From Luteitalea pratensis (lineage in GTDB: Bacteria > Acidobacteriota > Vicinamibacteria > Vicinamibacterales > Vicinamibacteraceae), in the NCBI RefSeq assembly GCF_001618865.1, contig NZ_CP015136.1, positions 4,003,001-4,067,000 on the forward strand: a stretch of 64,000 nucleotides of DNA. Reading direction: 5' to 3'. The translations under genes and the position numbers were made by a program. Of this stretch, positions 52,165 to 61,803 are shown piece after piece. Position 1 is the stretch's first letter, and every line of letters begins with the position of its first letter. The notes under the pieces are model-generated. The model was not told the origin of the DNA and did not search any database. It worked only from the letters and a program-made list of their open reading frames with translations.

Positions 52165-55034
52165 TGCGGCGCCTGTTCCGTCAGGTGATTCTCCGGCAGT
52201 TGCGCGCGGAGAAGCTGCGCACGGCCATCACGATCGTCGGCGTCGCCGCGGGCATCGCCGTGGTGCTGGCCATCCGCCTGACCAACGCGAGCGCGGTGCG
52301 TGGCTTCGAGGCGGCGCTGGACCTGACGTCGGGGCGGGCCGGGCTCGAAATCGTCGGCGCGGGATTCGGCATCCCGGAGCGTGTCTTGCCTGAGATTGAC
52401 TGGCTGCGCGAGTATGGCAGCACCAGTCCGGTCATCGATGGGGATGTGCTCGTCGAGGTCGGTAGGGACCGCTCCGTTGGTAGGGACCGCTCCGTTGGTA
52501 GGGACCGCTCCGTTGGTAGGGACCGCTCCGTTGGTAGGGACCGCTCCGTTGGTAGGGACCGCTCCGTTGGTAGGGACCGCTCTCCGAGCGGTCCCTCTCC
52601 AGCGGACGACGCGGCTATCGGTAGGGACCGCTCTCCGAGCGGTCCATCTCCAGCGGACGACGCCGATAGACGCCTCGGACGGGGAGATGGACGCCTCGGA
52701 GAGGCGTCCCTACCTGTGCGAACTGAACTCCTCCGCGTTCTCGGTGTCGACATCCTTCGCGACCTTCCGATCCGCGACTACGACATCGGCGACGCGGGGA
52801 CGAACGTGCCGCGACCACGGACCGCGATCGACATCCTCGGTCTGCTGACCGACCCGGAAGCGGCCGTGATCACCCGTGCCTTTGCCGACCGGCACGGGTT
52901 CAAGGTAGGCGATCCGCTCCACATCGTCATCAGCGACCGGCTGAAGACGCTTCGTGTTCGTGCGCTCCTCGAGGCCGAAGGGCCTGCCAGGCTGCTCGAC
53001 GGCAACTTCCTGCTGATGGATCTTGCGGCGGCGCAGTGGGCCTTCGATCGGTTGGGAGTCGTGGATCGCATCGACATCACACTGGCCGGGGACGTGGACA
53101 TCGCCGCGGCGGAGCGCGCCATCGCGTCCCGCTTGCCGGTCGGCCTGGTCGTGCAGCGCCCTTCGCGTCGCGGCCAGCAGGTGGAGCAGATGCTCGCCGC
53201 GTTCCACCTGAACCTGACCGCGTTGTCCTCCATCGCGCTGCTGGTGGGCCTGTTCCTCGTCTACAACGCCGTATCGGTGTCGGTGCTCTCCCGTCGCCAG
53301 GAGATCGGGACGCTGCGGGCCCTCGGCCTGACTCGGCGACAGGTGCAGGCCTTGTTCCTGGGCGAGGCTGCCGTTTTCGGAGGCCTGGGCGTCGTCCTGG
53401 GGATCCCGCTCGCGCGGTTGCTCGCCGGCGTCACCGTCGCGCTCACGTCGAGCACGGTCAGGACCTTGTACGTGGCCACCGCGGCCGCGCCGCTCTCGCT
53501 CGGCTGGCACGACGTGCTCCTGGCCCTGCTGGTTGGCATCCCGCTCTCGCTGCTTGCCGCCTGGCTGCCCGCGCGCGAAGCCGCCGGTGTCCCCCCCACC
53601 GCGATCCTGCGCGGCGCCGATCGCGCCGACGCGCGCTCGTCACGCCAGGCGCGTTCCCGCTGGTCCGCAGTCGTTCTGCTGGGGCTTGCGGCGGCTCTCA
53701 GTCGGATGCCGCCCGTACGCGGCCTGCCCCTGGCGGGTTATGCGGCGAGTTTCGCGCTCGTATTCGGTGCGGCACTGCTGATGCCGGCATTGCTGCAGGT
53801 AGCGGCGCGGCGGGGTAGGGCCTTGTGGTATCGCGTGTTCGGCGTCAGCGGTTGGCTCGCGCATGCGGCGCTCGGCGGCGCGATCGGTCGTGTCGCCGTC
53901 AGCGTGTCGGCGCTGGCGGTGAGCCTGGCCATGATGGTCGCCATCACCATCATGGTCAGCAGCTTCCGGCAAACGGTCATCGACTGGGTCGGCCAGAGTC
54001 TCAAGGCCGACCTGTTTGTCGGGCCCGCGTCACGGCGCCGTGGCGCGCGCGCGCCGACGATCTCGCGCGTCGTCGAGGACGTCGTGCGCGCCCATCCGGA
54101 AGTGGCGGCCGTCGACGCGTTCCGCTCGGCGACCGTGCCGTATGGGAACAGCCTCGTCTACCTCGGTTCCGGAGACTTCGCCCTGCAGCAGCGATTCGGT
54201 GGCCTGCGCTTCAAGCAAGCGCCTCGGGCAGCGGCGGCGACGGTCCAGGCCGGCCAGGCCGTCGCCCTCAACGCGCTGGAGCAGGCACGCGGACGAGACG
54301 CGGTCATCGTCTCCGAGCCGTTCGCCACCAGGTACCGGAAGCACGCGGGCGAGCGTCTCTCGCTCGCGACGCCCGCCGGGCCGGTGGAGTTCGCCATTGC
54401 CGGCGTGTACTTCGACTACTCGAGCGATCGCGGCGTGGTGATGATGGACAACGCCACGATGGCGCGTCACTTCGGCGAGCAGCGACCTACCGGCCTCACC
54501 GTATATCTGAAGGACGGCACACGGGCCCCGGCGGTCCGTGCGCAACTGCTCGAACGCTTCGACGGCGCCGCGGGCATCTTCATCTACACGAACCGTGCGC
54601 TCCGCGAGGAAGTGCTGCGCATCTTCGACAGCACGTTCGCCATCACTTACGCACTGCAGGCGATCGCGATCGTCGTCGCCCTCCTCGGCATCGTCGGCTC
54701 GCTGATGACGCTGGTGATCGAGCGCCGGCGTGAGCTCGGCATCCTGCGGGCGGTTGGCGCCAGTCGCGGGCAGGTGCGAGCCATGATCGTGGCCGAGGCC
54801 GCAATGCTCGGCGCGATCAGCCAGGTAGCCGGTGTGGCGCTCGGCGTGCTGCTGGCGCTGATTCTCGTCTATGTCGTCAACCTCCAGAGCTTCGGCTGGA
54901 CGATCCACCTCACCATCCCCTGGACGTCGCTGCTGCAGATGTCGGGCCTCGTGATCGTGACCACGCTGCTTGCCGGGCTCTACCCGGCCCAGCGCGCCAT
55001 GCAGGAACAGGCCGCGCCGCTGGAGGACGAGTGA
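52164..55034 (+). CDS. FtsX/MacB-family ABC permease carrying an in-frame REP expansion
   Basis: The 956-aa membrane protein has one N-terminal helix, a periplasmic domain, three helices near 340-480, a second helix and periplasmic domain from ~550 to 790, and three C-terminal helices. That is a fused double FtsX permease. Its partner is the ATPase upstream. Residues ~100-184 are a foreign-looking insert: six copies of GRDRSV, then GRDRSPSGPS twice, then an inverted REP-derived part (GRLGEASLP). The flanking text VDGDVLVEV-type periplasmic sequence resumes as LLRVLGVDILRDLPI. The insert adds 85 codons with no frameshift. Whether it is translated and tolerated is untested. Confidence 0.88.
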   Translation: MRRLFRQVILRQLRAEKLRTAITIVGVAAGIAVVLAIRLTNASAVRGFEAALDLTSGRAGLEIVGAGFGIPERVLPEIDWLREYGSTSPVIDGDVLVEVGRDRSVGRDRSVGRDRSVGRDRSVGRDRSVGRDRSVGRDRSPSGPSPADDAAIGRDRSPSGPSPADDADRRLGRGDGRLGEASLPVRTELLRVLGVDILRDLPIRDYDIGDAGTNVPRPRTAIDILGLLTDPEAAVITRAFADRHGFKVGDPLHIVISDRLKTLRVRALLEAEGPARLLDGNFLLMDLAAAQWAFDRLGVVDRIDITLAGDVDIAAAERAIASRLPVGLVVQRPSRRGQQVEQMLAAFHLNLTALSSIALLVGLFLVYNAVSVSVLSRRQEIGTLRALGLTRRQVQALFLGEAAVFGGLGVVLGIPLARLLAGVTVALTSSTVRTLYVATAAAPLSLGWHDVLLALLVGIPLSLLAAWLPAREAAGVPPTAILRGADRADARSSRQARSRWSAVVLLGLAAALSRMPPVRGLPLAGYAASFALVFGAALLMPALLQVAARRGRALWYRVFGVSGWLAHAALGGAIGRVAVSVSALAVSLAMMVAITIMVSSFRQTVIDWVGQSLKADLFVGPASRRRGARAPTISRVVEDVVRAHPEVAAVDAFRSATVPYGNSLVYLGSGDFALQQRFGGLRFKQAPRAAAATVQAGQAVALNALEQARGRDAVIVSEPFATRYRKHAGERLSLATPAGPVEFAIAGVYFDYSSDRGVVMMDNATMARHFGEQRPTGLTVYLKDGTRAPAVRAQLLERFDGAAGIFIYTNRALREEVLRIFDSTFAITYALQAIAIVVALLGIVGSLMTLVIERRRELGILRAVGASRGQVRAMIVAEAAMLGAISQVAGVALGVLLALILVYVVNLQSFGWTIHLTIPWTSLLQMSGLVIVTTLLAGLYPAQRAMQEQAAPLEDE
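52461..52713. repeat. REP-derived array inside the permease gene (18-bp period)
   Basis: Six 18-bp units (GGTAGGGACCGCTCCGTT, starts at 52461, 52479, 52497, 52515, 52533 and 52551) are half-hairpins. They are followed by two full plus-strand REPs (52569-52594 and 52620-52645) and one minus-strand REP of the GGACGCCTC stem type (52689-52713). The period of six codons keeps the frame. Confidence 0.95.
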
Positions 55035-56325: not shown

Positions 56326-56961
56326 TCAGCGCCCCGTGCGGGCGGCTGCCCAACGTGCGCCGAGGAATGCGCCCAGTGCATTGCTCATGACATCGGTCGT
56401 CGTCGGCAGGCGGCCGTGTGAATACACCTGGAACAACTCGACCGCCGTCGACAGGAGAATCGCCCCTCCTACGATCAGGTAGGGACGCCTCTCCGAGGCG
56501 TCCATCTCCGCGGCGTCCCTCTCCGAGGCGTCCATCTCCGCGGCGTCCCCCTCCGAGGCGTCCATCTCCGAGGCGTCCCTCGCCGAGGCGTCCATCTCCG
56601 CGGCGTCCATCGTCGCAGATGCGCCCTCACGCGTGTCGCGTGGACGTGGAGATGGACCGCTCGGAGAGCGGTCCCTACCAAGGAAAGAACGGTCCCTATC
56701 AAGGAAAGAGCGGTCCCTACCAAGGAAGGAGCAGTCCCTACCCAAGAAGGCCGACGCAGAGTAACCGAAGGGCAGGAACAACAGGATGTTGAGCAGGAAG
56801 TCGACCGGCCGCACGCGCTGCGAAAATGGCACCCACTCCACCTTCGCCCAGTGACTGTGCCCCACGTAATACGTGGACCACGGCATCGTGGTAGCGGCGA
56901 CGATGAGTGTCACGCTGACGATCAGCAGCAGGAGCGCGGTCCCTCTCGCGGTAGAAGCCAT
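56326..56961 (-). CDS. VanZ-family membrane protein split by an in-frame REP array
   Basis: The 211-aa product has a VanZ-like core of about 123 residues. Helix 1 is ALLLLIVSVTLIVAATTMPW, then the VPF-x-DFLLNILLFLPFGYSAS motif. After an ~88-residue insert it resumes with LIVGGAILLSTAVELFQVYS and GRLPTTTDVMSNALGAFLGA, the family's DxxxNxxG end. The insert (about residues 74-161) is built only from REP pieces: LGRDRSF-type repeats, then alternating EMDASE/RDAAE repeats. It sits exactly in the loop between helices, so the fold could tolerate it. VanZ relatives have been linked to glycopeptide resistance; the role here is unknown. Confidence 0.8.
   Translation of the reverse strand: MASTARGTALLLLIVSVTLIVAATTMPWSTYYVGHSHWAKVEWVPFSQRVRPVDFLLNILLFLPFGYSASAFLGRDCSFLGRDRSFLDRDRSFLGRDRSPSGPSPRPRDTREGASATMDAAEMDASARDASEMDASEGDAAEMDASERDAAEMDASERRPYLIVGGAILLSTAVELFQVYSHGRLPTTTDVMSNALGAFLGARWAAARTGR
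56478..56741. repeat. REP array inside the VanZ gene (15-bp and 21-bp periods)
   Basis: One full plus REP (foot 56479-56482, hairpin 56483-56503, GGACGCCTC stem) extends into about eight 15-bp units built on GAGGCGTCC-ATCTCC to ~56610. A full minus REP of the GGACCGCTC type lies at 56654-56678. Three 21-bp half-units (CAAGGAAAGAGCGGTCCCTA-type) follow to 56741. Periods of 15 and 21 bp keep the frame. Confidence 0.92.
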
Positions 56962-57588: not shown

Positions 57589-57659
57589 GTCGGCCCGCTG
57601 CCGGCGACCGTGATCCTGAGCGGCCCGTTGCCGTAGGCAGTACACTACCGCGACCCTGC

Positions 57660-60458
57660 ATGCCTGGCGATTCGGAGGCGCTGTACGAGCACGTGTCCCG
57701 TGCGTTGGCCGATGGCGAGCCCATCGACTGGGATGCGCTCGCCGTCGATCCGAGGACACGCGCGACGCTGCAGCAATTGCGGGTGCTGTCCGAAGTGGCC
57801 CGGCTGCACCGTGACACGCTGCCCGACCCCGCCGCCGCCGCGCTCCCGCCTCCGCCCCTGCAGGCCGGCGACTTCTGGGGGCACCTCACGCTGCGTGGGG
57901 AACTCGGGCGTGGCGCGCGAGGCCACGTCTATCGCGCCTGGGACCCGCAACTCGATCGCGAGGTGGCCCTCAAGCTCACGGTGGATCGGGACACCAAACG
58001 GGGAAGCAAGGACATCATCGCCGAGGCGCGCCTGCTGGCGCGCGTGAAGCATCCGCACGTCGCCACGGTGTTCGGCGCCGAGCGTCGGAGTGGCCTCGTC
58101 GGCCTGTGGATGGAACTGGTCGAGGGCGAGACGCTCGAGGCCATGTTGCTGCGGGTCGGGCGCTTCAATGCACGCGAGGTGGCGCTCATCGGCATCGACG
58201 TCTGTTCGGCGCTGTCGGCTGTGCACGCGGCGGGCCTGCTGCATCGCGACGTGAAGGCGCAGAACGTCATGCGCGACCGCAACGGGCGCCTGGTGCTGAT
58301 GGACTTCGGCACTGGCCGCGACGCGGTGTCGGACGAGGGGGCGTTCGTCCACGACGAAGTCGGCACGCCGCTGTACATGGCACCCGAGCTGTTTCGGAGC
58401 GGCAAGGCCAGCGTCCAGAGCGATATCTACAGCGTCGGCGTCCTGCTGTATCGGCTCGTCACCGGCTCGGTTCCGATCGAGGCGCATTCCCCCGAGTCCC
58501 TCAAGGCGGCACATTTCGCGGGACAGCGGGTCCGTCTCGCCGATGTCCGCAGCGACCTGCCGCTCGCCTTCATCCGGGTCGTCGAACGCGCGCTCTCGGT
58601 CGACCCCACCGAGCGTTATCGGAGTGCGGGCGAACTCGAAATGGCCCTCTCGGGACTGCTCGTGCCGATCGAACCGGCACACCCCGTGAAGGCGAGAGGG
58701 CAGCGGCTTGTGACGATTGGCGCGGCGCTGGGATCGCTTGTCGCGGGACTGGCCATCGGTGGGTCGTGGTGGGCATCGCGGCCTCCAGTGCCGCAAGAGG
58801 TGAGGTTCGCAGTCTTCCCTGTCGGCCCCCGCGACGAGGTGCAGAGCCTCGCGCTCTCGCCTGACGGGCTGCGGCTGGCATACGTCTCCGCGGGACGGCT
58901 GCAGGTGCGGCGGATGAACGACGTCGCTGCCGTCGAGTTCGAACAGACGCAGGGGGTACGCGATCCCTTCTGGTCGCCGGACGGACAGTGGATCGCCTTC
59001 TTTCGGGGCGTGTCGGTGTGGAAGGTACGCGCCTCCGGCGGGGAACCGCAGATGGTGGCCCCCGCGCGCAGGCCGTCGTCCGGATCCTGGGGACCTGACG
59101 ACACGCTGCTGTACTCGATCGATCACGGTTCGTCGATCGTCGCGGTCCATGCCGGTGGCGGCACGCCCCGGGTGATTCGCGCGCAGCACTCGGGGCTGCG
59201 CACTGAACTGGCGTGGCCCGTCTGGACCAACGATGGCGCGCATTTCGTCTACTCGGCCGTCAGCGCGCGTTCTGGTCGCCGGGTGCTGTACCTGGCGGCG
59301 GCAGCCGACGGCGTGGACACGCCGGATCGTGAGTTGGGCAACATCGCCTCCAACGCGCTGGTCGTCGGCGACCGTGTCTTGTTCGTGAAGGCGGGTCAAC
59401 TGCAGGCGCAGCATCTGGACGTGCGCGCCGGCGTCCTGGTGGGCGAGGCCATGCCGGTGACCGACGGTGTCGCCATCAATCCGTACGATGCCGGCGACGC
59501 CGAGATGTCGGTAGCCATGCCCCTCGCGCCCAGACCCGGCCAGGGCGGGCCGGCGTTCGCGACGGTCGCGTACGTCGGCGTGAGCCAGAGTCCGCGACAG
59601 ATGGCCATCGTCGACGCGTCGGGCAGGCTCGTCGAATCGCTCACGTCCGCCGAGACACGGGACATGCGGCTCTCGCCCGACGGACGGATGGTCGCCGTCG
59701 AAGAAGTCGATGTAGAGACAGGGACTCGCGAGATCTGGGTGCACGACCTGGAGCGCCGATCCCGGATCCGGCTGACGCAACACCCGGCCGAGGACATCGC
59801 GCCGGTGTGGTCGCGCGACAGCGGCTTCGTGTACTTCATCTCGGCGCGCACGGGTCGCTGGACCCTGTTCGGCATCTCGGCGCATGGCGGCCAGCGCGAA
59901 GTGGAGCTCTTCGCGTTCGACGGACGTGTCATCCCGAACGAGATCACGCCGGATGGTCGTTCGCTGGTGTTCCAGCGGCTCGACCAGCAGGGCGGGTGGG
60001 ACATCTGGATCCGATCGATGGCGGGTGGCGAAGCGACGCCGCTGGTGCAGTCGAGCCACAACGATCACGAACCCGCGATCTCACCTGACGGGCGGTACCT
60101 CGCCTATTCCACGCCGGAGTCTGGCGGACAGCAGGTGTGGGTGATGCCGCTGCCGGCCGACGGGCGGCGCTGGCGGGTGTCGTCCGACTATGGCCGGGAG
60201 CCTGCCTGGAGCGCGGATGGCCGCATGCTCTACTTCCACGGGCTGAATCGAACCCTGATGCGGGCGAGTGCGGACCTCACCGGGAACACGCCGATACTCG
60301 GCGTCGCGCAAGGGCTCTTCACGATTCCGTTCCGCGGCTACGACATGCGATCCCATTTCGCCGCCTTTCCGGGTGGGACACGCTTCCTCGTCAGCGTGCC
60401 ACCTGACGCTCTGCCTCCCGCGTCGGCCACGGTCATCCTCAACGCGCCGATCCCCTGA
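57660..60458 (+). CDS. Ser/Thr protein kinase fused to a TolB-like beta-propeller
   Basis: The 932-aa protein starts with a short helical region (residues 1-70), then a Hanks-type kinase (about 76-340): Gly loop GELGRGARGHVY, Lys105 (VALKLT), HRD motif LHRDVKAQN (Asp197), DFG (Asp215), MAPELF, and SDIYSVGVLLYRLVTG. A single membrane helix at ~360-380 (TIGAALGSLVAGLAIGGSWW) follows. The extracytoplasmic WD40/TolB-type propeller (~385-930) has many SPDGRxxA repeats. The layout suggests outside sensing by the propeller and signalling by the cytoplasmic kinase. All catalytic residues are intact. ATG 57660; the frame upstream is only a shadow of aat. Confidence 0.93.
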   Translation: MPGDSEALYEHVSRALADGEPIDWDALAVDPRTRATLQQLRVLSEVARLHRDTLPDPAAAALPPPPLQAGDFWGHLTLRGELGRGARGHVYRAWDPQLDREVALKLTVDRDTKRGSKDIIAEARLLARVKHPHVATVFGAERRSGLVGLWMELVEGETLEAMLLRVGRFNAREVALIGIDVCSALSAVHAAGLLHRDVKAQNVMRDRNGRLVLMDFGTGRDAVSDEGAFVHDEVGTPLYMAPELFRSGKASVQSDIYSVGVLLYRLVTGSVPIEAHSPESLKAAHFAGQRVRLADVRSDLPLAFIRVVERALSVDPTERYRSAGELEMALSGLLVPIEPAHPVKARGQRLVTIGAALGSLVAGLAIGGSWWASRPPVPQEVRFAVFPVGPRDEVQSLALSPDGLRLAYVSAGRLQVRRMNDVAAVEFEQTQGVRDPFWSPDGQWIAFFRGVSVWKVRASGGEPQMVAPARRPSSGSWGPDDTLLYSIDHGSSIVAVHAGGGTPRVIRAQHSGLRTELAWPVWTNDGAHFVYSAVSARSGRRVLYLAAAADGVDTPDRELGNIASNALVVGDRVLFVKAGQLQAQHLDVRAGVLVGEAMPVTDGVAINPYDAGDAEMSVAMPLAPRPGQGGPAFATVAYVGVSQSPRQMAIVDASGRLVESLTSAETRDMRLSPDGRMVAVEEVDVETGTREIWVHDLERRSRIRLTQHPAEDIAPVWSRDSGFVYFISARTGRWTLFGISAHGGQREVELFAFDGRVIPNEITPDGRSLVFQRLDQQGGWDIWIRSMAGGEATPLVQSSHNDHEPAISPDGRYLAYSTPESGGQQVWVMPLPADGRRWRVSSDYGREPAWSADGRMLYFHGLNRTLMRASADLTGNTPILGVAQGLFTIPFRGYDMRSHFAAFPGGTRFLVSVPPDALPPASATVILNAPIP

Positions 60459-60480
60459 TCCGATCGGACACCTCTTCGTT

Positions 60481-60754
60481 GGTAGGGACCGCTCTCCGAG
60501 CGGTCCTCCTCCTCCCTGATGCATCACGATTCGTTGGTAGGGACCGCTCTCCGAGCGGTCCACTCCTCCCTGACACATCACGATCCGTTGGTAGGGACCG
60601 CTCTCCGAGCGGTCCACTTCCTCCCTGATGCATCACGATTCGTTGGTAGGGACCGCTCTCCGAGCGGTCCACTTCCTCCCTGATGCATCACGATTCGTTG
60701 GTAGGGACCGCTCTCCGAGCGGTCCACCTCCTCCCTGATGCTTCACGACAATAT
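60481..60754 (+). repeat. Five tandem 55-bp units, each with a REP-like hairpin
   Basis: Units start at 60481, 60536, 60590, 60645 and 60700 (periods 55, 54, 55, 55). Each has GGTAG, then the 9-bp stem GGACCGCTC/GAGCGGTCC with loop TCC, then a ~29-bp linker. The linker contains the perfect palindrome TGATGCATCA, changed in units 2 and 5. The array fills most of the 367-bp gap 60459-60825, which has no gene. Confidence 0.97.
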
Positions 60755-60777
60755 GGGAGGCCTGGAGGTGAGGAGAT

Positions 60778-60803
60778 GGACGCCTCGGAGAGGCGTCCCT
60801 ACC
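60778..60803 (-). repeat. Inverted REP-like hairpin closing the array
   Basis: Minus-strand copy of the GGACGCCTC/GAGGCGTCC stem type with GTAG foot at 60799-60802. It faces the five plus-strand copies, making a mixed-type inverted cluster, 22 bp before the aldo/keto reductase start. Confidence 0.9.
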
Positions 60804-60813
60804 TCGATACACA

Positions 60814-60819
60814 TAGAAT
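60814..60819 (+). promoter_or_regulatory. Candidate -10 box for the aldo/keto reductase gene
   Basis: TAGAAT ends 6 nt before ATG 60826, and there is no ribosome site. Initiation about 7 nt downstream would make a leaderless mRNA. A -35 box is not clear. Low-confidence call. Confidence 0.35.
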
Positions 60820-60825
60820 CTACCA

Positions 60826-61803
60826 ATGCAGACACGCCAACTCGGGCGCACCGACCTTCACATCACGGCGATCGGCTTCGGAGCGTGGGCCATCGGCGGC
60901 GAATGGCGCTTCGGTTGGGGCCCCCAGGACGATACCGACTCCATTGCGGCCATCCGGCAGGCAGTCAGCCGCGGCATGAACTGGATCGACACGGCGCCGG
61001 CATATGGTCTCGGGCATTCTGAGGAGGTGGTCGCCAGCGCACTCGCGGACATTCCGCGCGCCGACCGGCCGTACGTCTTCACGAAGTGCAGCCTCGTATG
61101 GGGCGAGGATCGGGTCGTCACGCATGACGTGTCGGGCCCGTCCATCCGCCGTGAAGTCGAGGAAAGCCTGCGCCGGCTCCAGATGGACGCCATCGACCTC
61201 TACCAGATTCACTGGCCGCGCTGGCATTCGGCGCCGGCGCCGTCACCGGGCAGCGTCGCCGAAGCGTGGGAGACACTGGCTGACCTGAAGCAGCAGGGGA
61301 AGGTCCGCCATATCGGTGTCTCGAACTTCACCGTCAACGACCTCGAGACCGCCGAGGCCATCGCGCCAGTCGGGTCATTGCAGCCGCCATACTCGATGCT
61401 GCGCCGTGGCATCGAAGCCGACCTGCTGCCGTATTGCCGCGACAAGAACATCGGTGTGCTCGGGTACAGCCCGATGCTGTCGGGCCTGCTGACCGGCGCG
61501 ATGACGCGTGAGCGGATCGCGGCACTGGCCGACAGCGACTGGCGTCGGAACAACAAGGAATTCCAGGAGCCGCAGCTCTCGGCCAACCTTGTGCTCGTCG
61601 ACCTCTTGCGCGCCATTGGCGCGCGCCACGGGCGGTCGGCGGGGGAGGTCGCCATCGCATGGACGCTCCGGCATCCGGTCGTGACGGCCGCCATCGTCGG
61701 CGGCCGATCGGCGGCGCAGGTCGATGGCGTGGTCGGCGCGGCCGGGTTCACGTTGTCGTCCGGAGAACTGGCGGAGATCGAACACGCGCTGCCGCGTGCC
61801 TGA
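60826..61803 (+). CDS. Aldo/keto reductase
   Basis: NADPH-dependent oxidoreductase of the AKR superfamily, 325 aa. The catalytic tetrad is visible: Asp55 and Tyr60 (NWIDTAPAYGLGHSEE), Lys87 (FTKCSLVW) and His129 (LYQIHWP). Cofactor-site motifs are IGVSNFTV, LQPPYSMLRR, LGYSPMLSGLLTG and the C-terminal AIVGGRSAAQVD. The sequence is of the YajO/Tas-like or pyridoxal-reductase-like type. Substrate unknown. The serine dehydratase gene follows 3 nt after the stop codon, so they are probably co-transcribed. Confidence 0.93.
   Translation: MQTRQLGRTDLHITAIGFGAWAIGGEWRFGWGPQDDTDSIAAIRQAVSRGMNWIDTAPAYGLGHSEEVVASALADIPRADRPYVFTKCSLVWGEDRVVTHDVSGPSIRREVEESLRRLQMDAIDLYQIHWPRWHSAPAPSPGSVAEAWETLADLKQQGKVRHIGVSNFTVNDLETAEAIAPVGSLQPPYSMLRRGIEADLLPYCRDKNIGVLGYSPMLSGLLTGAMTRERIAALADSDWRRNNKEFQEPQLSANLVLVDLLRAIGARHGRSAGEVAIAWTLRHPVVTAAIVGGRSAAQVDGVVGAAGFTLSSGELAEIEHALPRA

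Follow-up and report, generated by a model that had tools for sequence, protein, structure and literature searches.

What is the short tandem array that lies between a protein kinase gene and an aldo/keto reductase gene of Luteitalea pratensis, how did it grow, and why does it end in an inverted copy with a different stem? The array was analyzed within a 64-kb stretch of the genome (contig NZ_CP015136.1, positions 4,003,001 to 4,067,000; hereafter the window), for which an earlier sequence-only reading had proposed five units of about 55 bp, each holding a repetitive extragenic palindrome (REP) hairpin and a 10-bp palindrome. Our results show that the array itself is an ordinary REP cluster. 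What is new here is the strictness with which inverted neighbouring REPs differ in stem, together with the capping of same-direction arrays by one inverted REP, and both sharpen a published preference.

The array is a cluster of GTAG REPs

The five head-to-tail units are real, with successive REP starts spaced 55, 54, 55, and 55 bp apart; their span required adjustment, as the repeat proper begins at 60475, slightly ahead of the 60481 given before (Table 1). All five units contain the identical 25-nt hairpin GTAGGGACCGCTCTCCGAGCGGTCC, which is composed of a GTAG tag, the 9-bp stem GGACCGCTC, the loop TCC, and the return arm (type A). The terminal inverted copy with a different stem was found as described, and carries the stem GGACGCCTC (type B) instead of GGACCGCTC. 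The GTAG tag is located at the hairpin end in 6/6 hairpins of the cluster, and unit 5 and the inverted B stand 52 nt apart in opposite orientation with a linker between them, which is the arrangement of a bacterial interspersed mosaic element (BIME). The reported concentration of variation in the linker was also seen: 7 of 24 aligned linker columns vary, whereas all 25 stem columns are constant (Fisher p 0.003, computed on cells that are not independent because the units have a common history), and units 3 and 4 are identical to each other.

At up to 3 mismatches, 16 REP matches were found in the window, compared with 0 in 100 shuffles. Throughout the 7.48-Mb single-contig genome the pattern GTAGGGACSSCTCYSYGAGSSGTCC, with no more than 2 mismatches allowed, occurred 177 times in the forward and 127 times in the reverse direction, and these 304 matches constitute the high, dispersed copy number that characterizes REPs; the reversed control pattern gave 0 genome matches at the same threshold. 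Between the main stem types, A (CG), B (GC), and C (GG), one or two base pairs are exchanged by compensatory changes at two stem pairs, and the stem is perfect throughout. Because these changes leave the hairpin intact, they suggest that it is the hairpin that matters. The tag, the hairpin, the genomic matches, and a gene, described below, whose product is a REP-associated tyrosine transposase (RAYT) and which lies among the same hairpins, strongly support the REP identity suggested earlier, and the cluster is very probably a non-coding, BIME-like GTAG REP cluster of a known kind.

Table 1. Features of the REP cluster and its flanking genes, in window coordinates.
Feature	Position	Strand	Basis
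Five-unit tandem array, period 54/55 bp	60475..60748	+	Tandem Repeats Finder score 492, 5.0 copies
REP type A, unit 1	60482..60506	+	exact match
REP type A, unit 2	60537..60561	+	exact match
REP type A, unit 3	60591..60615	+	exact match
REP type A, unit 4	60646..60670	+	exact match
REP type A, unit 5	60701..60725	+	exact match
Cap, inverted REP type B	60778..60802	-	exact match
Perfect palindrome TGATGCATCA, unit 1	60517..60526		window palindrome count
Broken palindrome TGACACATCA, unit 2	60571..60580		read from sequence
Perfect palindrome TGATGCATCA, unit 3	60626..60635		window palindrome count
Perfect palindrome TGATGCATCA, unit 4	60681..60690		window palindrome count
Broken palindrome TGATGCTTCA, unit 5	60736..60745		read from sequence
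Protein kinase / PD40 gene, upstream	57615..60458	+	Pfam Pkinase, PD40; 5' end is that of the searched translated stretch
Aldo/keto reductase gene, downstream	60826..61803	+	Pfam Aldo_ket_red

Inverted neighbours differ in their stems

The stems of neighbouring REPs were compared in the present genome (G000) and in two others of the genus (G001 and G004), the context of the 304 G000 matches being read only inside fetched stretches, most of which had been picked for holding REPs. All 28 tags-out inverted pairs 20-50 nt apart in G000 combine different stems (A-B 21, B-C 4, A-C 3). Shuffling of the stems gave a mean of 10.9 identical pairs, and a set with zero identical pairs occurred in 0 of 200,000 shuffles. 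The same was observed for 47/47 inverted neighbours in all fetched G000 stretches (36 tags-out and 11 tags-in, overlapping the 28 pairs) and for 17/17 inverted neighbours within 200 bp in one uninterrupted stretch of 267 kb that surrounds the window and the RAYT gene. In G004, 21/21 tags-out pairs have different stems, with 4.5 identical pairs expected and none in 995 of 200,000 shuffles, and in G001, which has its own REP class, 3/3 matches differ at the last stem pair. The linker cores of the G000 pairs are unrelated, with 1 of 351 comparisons above the shuffled maximum; pair 832621, a tandem duplicate of 832446, was omitted from the linker and fold comparisons, so that 27 of the 28 pairs were used. 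For the G004 linkers longer than 20 nt (12 of 21), 4 of 66 comparisons exceeded the shuffled maximum, and some of these pairs may be copies of each other.

REPs in the same direction are less uniform. Among the same-direction neighbours in all fetched G000 stretches, 33/41 share the stem, seven are one base apart, and one (L089, B then A) differs at two; a strict rule of same direction, same stem was accordingly dropped on recount. Three long same-direction arrays were found, namely A x5 in the window, C x15 beside the RAYT gene (L013), and C x15 at 5517770 (L084; one interruption), in a search that would miss some spacings and may have left the list incomplete. Each of the three terminates in one inverted B. 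Linker variation is inflated in the L013 array by one unit mis-registered at the end and in the L084 array by one irregular unit.

An exact-pattern scan of named genomes, which may exclude the window's own genome, returned five loci (L091-L095) where the same 25-mers occur as same-direction pairs, in records labelled Opitutaceae, Opitutae, Lentisphaerae, and Oscillospiraceae. L094 and L095 (both Oscillospiraceae, one bin) hold a C array with an inverted GGCGGTTTC partner, the same-direction pairs of L091 and L093 lack a cap, and L092 has another arrangement. At these five loci inverted neighbours occur four times, always with different stems. The presence of the same 25-nt REPs in these records suggests horizontal spread, convergence, or mixed bins.

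A strict rule might underlie these observations, by which inverted REP neighbours need mismatched stems, the rule being upheld by loss of pairs that form a long hairpin, while growth in one direction beside a mismatched partner would give rise to capped arrays. We put this forward tentatively, and our already low estimate of its probability was lowered slightly further because the same-direction rule failed and the caps in other phyla are thin.

Predicted folding of inverted pairs

In folding predictions for single-stranded DNA with a neutral poly-A linker, an identical pair favoured one 25-bp cross-duplex by 11.0 kcal/mol, and an A-B pair favoured two local hairpins by 4.6 kcal/mol. In G004, 19 of the 21 pairs favoured separate hairpins, compared with 10.0 in shuffles limited to different-stem pairs and counted without regard to shared ancestry, and 19 was reached in 0 of 50,000 shuffles. 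The same different-stem-only shuffle is uninformative in G000, where the marginal counts fix the result. With the real linkers of the 27 G000 pairs, in-silico identical versions all folded into the long form and were approximately 6 to 15 kcal/mol more stable.

Other predictions weigh against the idea that different-stem pairs survive by avoiding the long hairpin. With a neutral linker, the long form is still favoured by 1.9 kcal/mol for A-C pairs and by 3.6 kcal/mol for B-C pairs; with their real linkers, 18 of the 27 G000 pairs fold long and 9 locally; and, folded as single-stranded DNA, the array's own stretch from the fifth A to the cap (A5-B') also favours long cross-pairing. On these three grounds the stronger idea, by which separate folding alone explains different stems within a pair (heterotypy), was dropped. 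In these models, the effect of heterotypy is to weaken the long hairpin into short duplex runs, mostly without abolishing it. This predicted splitting agrees with an earlier proposal that heterodimers evade clearance of the SbcCD type (PMC3733652). SbcD is encoded in G000.

A RAYT gene and other repeats of the family

A RAYT gene lies about 63 kb from the array (G000:4000308-4000772; L013:1309-1773, minus strand). Its product scores 94.7 bits against NCBIfam NF047646 REP_Tyr_transpos (cut-off 80), and in a PDB search with a profile built from four RAYTs the top match was 4er8, listed as TnpArep. Residues H78, H80, and Y131, which we take to be catalytic, are invariant in all four proteins. A type-B REP overlaps the end of the gene and its GTAG provides the TAG stop (L013:1309-1312), as a REP GTAG also does for the gene before the 15-REP array (L013:443-446). 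This 15-REP type C array is located on the B side of the RAYT gene, and type-A REPs and A...B' pairs are located on the other side. A gene for a RAYT-type Y1 HUH transposase flanked by the same REPs, B on one side and A on the other, has the layout of a REPtron. From this proximity and the shared hairpins we infer that the REP family is linked to the RAYT of this genome.

Across the five genomes of the genus, RAYT relatives with 51-62% identity were found in G000 (two), G001, and G004, with a second, weak one in G001, and none were found in G002 or in G003, the latter being in about 830 contigs. REP-like matches number 304 in G000, 136 in G004, 13 in G001, 2 in G003, and 1 in G002; the sample of five genomes is small. 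Other REP stem classes adjoin the second G000 RAYT as well as those of G001 and G004, as judged partly by eye. The second G000 RAYT (L014:3024-3428) is diverged, with GGCC-class hairpins next to it. A third match to a Y1 transposase (G000:C1:2122613-2122866) is broken into two parts, one of which contains a stop codon.

The family also occurs in further repeats. Whole REP pairs form tandem arrays at L083:830-1875 (5.9 copies of 177 bp) and L082:903-1603 (4.0 copies of 175 bp), and an 18-mer half-REP, consisting of the type A 5' arm and CGTT, appears about twice per 177-bp unit of the former. In the window, 6.8 perfect copies of this 18-bp half-REP at 52461-52582 lead into a full REP, and tandem repeats at 56488-56608 (15/30 bp) and 56665-56742 (21 bp) consist of the type B loop and 3' arm and of an inverted half of type A. 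In a small same-direction cluster at L088:866-1170 the stems GGCCCGCTC and GGACCGCTC alternate, and an inverted B comes after them.

Origin and growth of the array

The array was most likely enlarged by tandem duplication of half of an inverted REP pair. RAYT activity would have brought an A...B' inverted pair into the gap that separates the kinase and reductase genes. Slippage of replication at the hairpin, or a template switch there, would then have duplicated the A half and the inner linker in tandem and left one B' at the end. Inverted partners with identical stems, which would form a long uninterrupted hairpin, would be lost, and only different-stem pairs would survive. The linker is common to the units and found nowhere else (4 genome matches at up to 3 mismatches, every one inside the array), which, together with the identity of units 3 and 4, argues for duplication in place and not for separate insertions. 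In the L084 array, 14/14 inner junctions hold TGGACGC, the first bases of an inverted B, followed by the next REP, suggesting that its unit stems from a C...B' pair cut within the second hairpin. In the half-REP repeats at 52461-52582 and 56488-56608 the unit ends within the hairpin loop, with the short matches CTCCG and TCTCCG between loop and flank (both by eye). Together with the L084 junctions, these repeats point to probable slippage or template switching at hairpins.

Some observations speak against this course of events. The unit ends of the five-unit array show no clear microhomology, and slippage is suggested for this array mainly by analogy with other arrays. The route via the RAYT is likewise suggested by proximity and shared hairpins, and mobility, transcription, and change in copy number are putative as read from the sequence. 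Furthermore, inspection by eye revealed no consistent CT dinucleotide at the unit junctions, as cleaved by the E. coli enzyme (PMC8266576). This last point also counts against the alternative that the RAYT itself amplified the units, by inserting excised single-stranded copies side by side without replication slippage. A RAYT with the same hairpins is present, the 15-unit array abuts it, and large clusters of P. fluorescens also lie beside RAYT genes (PMC3116915). However, the linkers in place and common to the units, the L084 units cut within the partner hairpin, and the half-REP repeats with ends in loops are all at odds with such a process, which we regard as possible but doubtful.

The same site in related species and the role of the array

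If the array arose by duplication of half a pair, does it serve a purpose where it stands? The cluster is extragenic, in a 367-bp gap that opens after the kinase stop (60458) and closes before the reductase start (60826). The orthologous gap measures 46 bp in G001 and contains no REP (214/300 of the last kinase residues identical), and 138 bp in G004, where it contains three hairpins of that genome's own REP class (kinase end 232/301 identical); in G002 a different gene lies upstream at the corresponding site. The REP-free gap of G001 and the other class in G004 indicate that the cluster is not conserved and that the same gap took different REPs. Variable copy number, as envisaged before, is thus supported between species. 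A coding role was rejected: overlapping open reading frames exist, but the period is mostly 55 nt, no multiple of three, so that one frame is not kept across the units. The locus shows neither the identical copy number with a conserved linker nor the coding function that the sequence-only reading had set against itself. Rfam returned three sub-threshold chance matches, which fell in two microRNA families and far under their gathering scores.

The array could be a kept regulatory element that, through its stacked hairpins, terminates the kinase transcript or makes it more stable and shields the reductase gene, and its position between two co-directional genes, its strong predicted transcript fold (z -8.4), and a -10-like TAGAAT at 60814-60819, 6 bp ahead of the reductase ATG, agree with this. 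Yet any REPs are expected to fold strongly, the same gap is REP-free in one relative and holds another REP class in a second, and a scan of the kinase-reductase gap region gave 0 sigma-70-like sites. The search for intrinsic terminators (a hairpin followed by a T-run) likewise gave 0 sites in 60380-60900, and the suggestion that the array ends transcription by such a terminator is not supported by this result. We therefore consider a kept regulatory element unlikely. Even less probable is the idea that the linker palindrome TGATGCATCA is a protein-binding site for which the REPs provide the spacing in an operator-like array. Its three perfect copies, regularly spaced where 0.08 are expected by chance, would be in line with it, but the palindrome claimed for every unit is perfect in 3/5 and broken in units 2 and 5, it occurs nowhere else in the window, and duplication of the units accounts for the spacing. 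The idea is weak because the linker is confined to the array and the palindrome is broken in two of the five units, and TGATGCATCA was ruled out as a conserved motif on the same grounds. Most likely the array has no dedicated role, except perhaps an effect on the 3' end of the kinase mRNA.

At positions comparable to the TAGAAT of the window, TACAAT and TAAGAT precede the reductase gene in G004 and G001, respectively. Although no site emerged from the sigma-70 scan, the TAGAAT ahead of the ATG may point to transcription without a leader.

Relation to known REP systems

GTAG REPs, RAYTs, tandem clusters, and the preference for heterodimers have already been published (PMC3733652, PMC3116915, PMC8266576), and the comparisons made here refer to the parts of these papers drawn on. 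The 2013 survey by Di Nocera et al. comprises 24 GTAG REP families and reports a heterodimer preference in several of them without an obvious explanation (PMC3733652). Those families, BIMEs, and REPtrons resemble the present system in the GTAG tag, the 9-bp stem, the 3-nt loop, and the compensatory stem subtypes, as well as in dimers 20-100 bp apart, tandemly reiterated clusters, and a nearby RAYT; the difference lies in the same-direction arrays of up to 15 REPs that are ended here by one inverted different-stem REP. The y/z1/z2 REPs and BIMEs of E. coli with TnpAREP (PMC8266576) likewise combine two inverse REP types in a mosaic with tandem copies and an HUH Y1 transposase, but their stems have a conserved bulge, whereas the stem here is perfect and types A, B, and C are one or two base pairs apart. 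P. fluorescens SBW25 (Bertels and Rainey, 2011; PMC3116915) shares inverted REP pairs (REPINs), ordered tandem clusters, and clusters beside RAYT genes; its ordered arrays alternate GI and GIII, whereas here one stem type is repeated and capped.

In the portions of the 2013 survey consulted, the acidobacterial transposases shown are all flanked by terminal inverted repeats (PMC3733652), and a RAYT accompanied by GTAG REPs in Acidobacteriota would add to that survey. A literature search for repetitive extragenic elements in Luteitalea returned no paper. A single genome here combines three near-identical stem types with dozens of inverted pairs and with three or more long same-direction arrays, and the cause of the heterodimer preference thereby becomes testable. 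If the mismatched-stem rule is true and the same layout holds in an unrelated phylum, the rule would be a general law of REP clusters.
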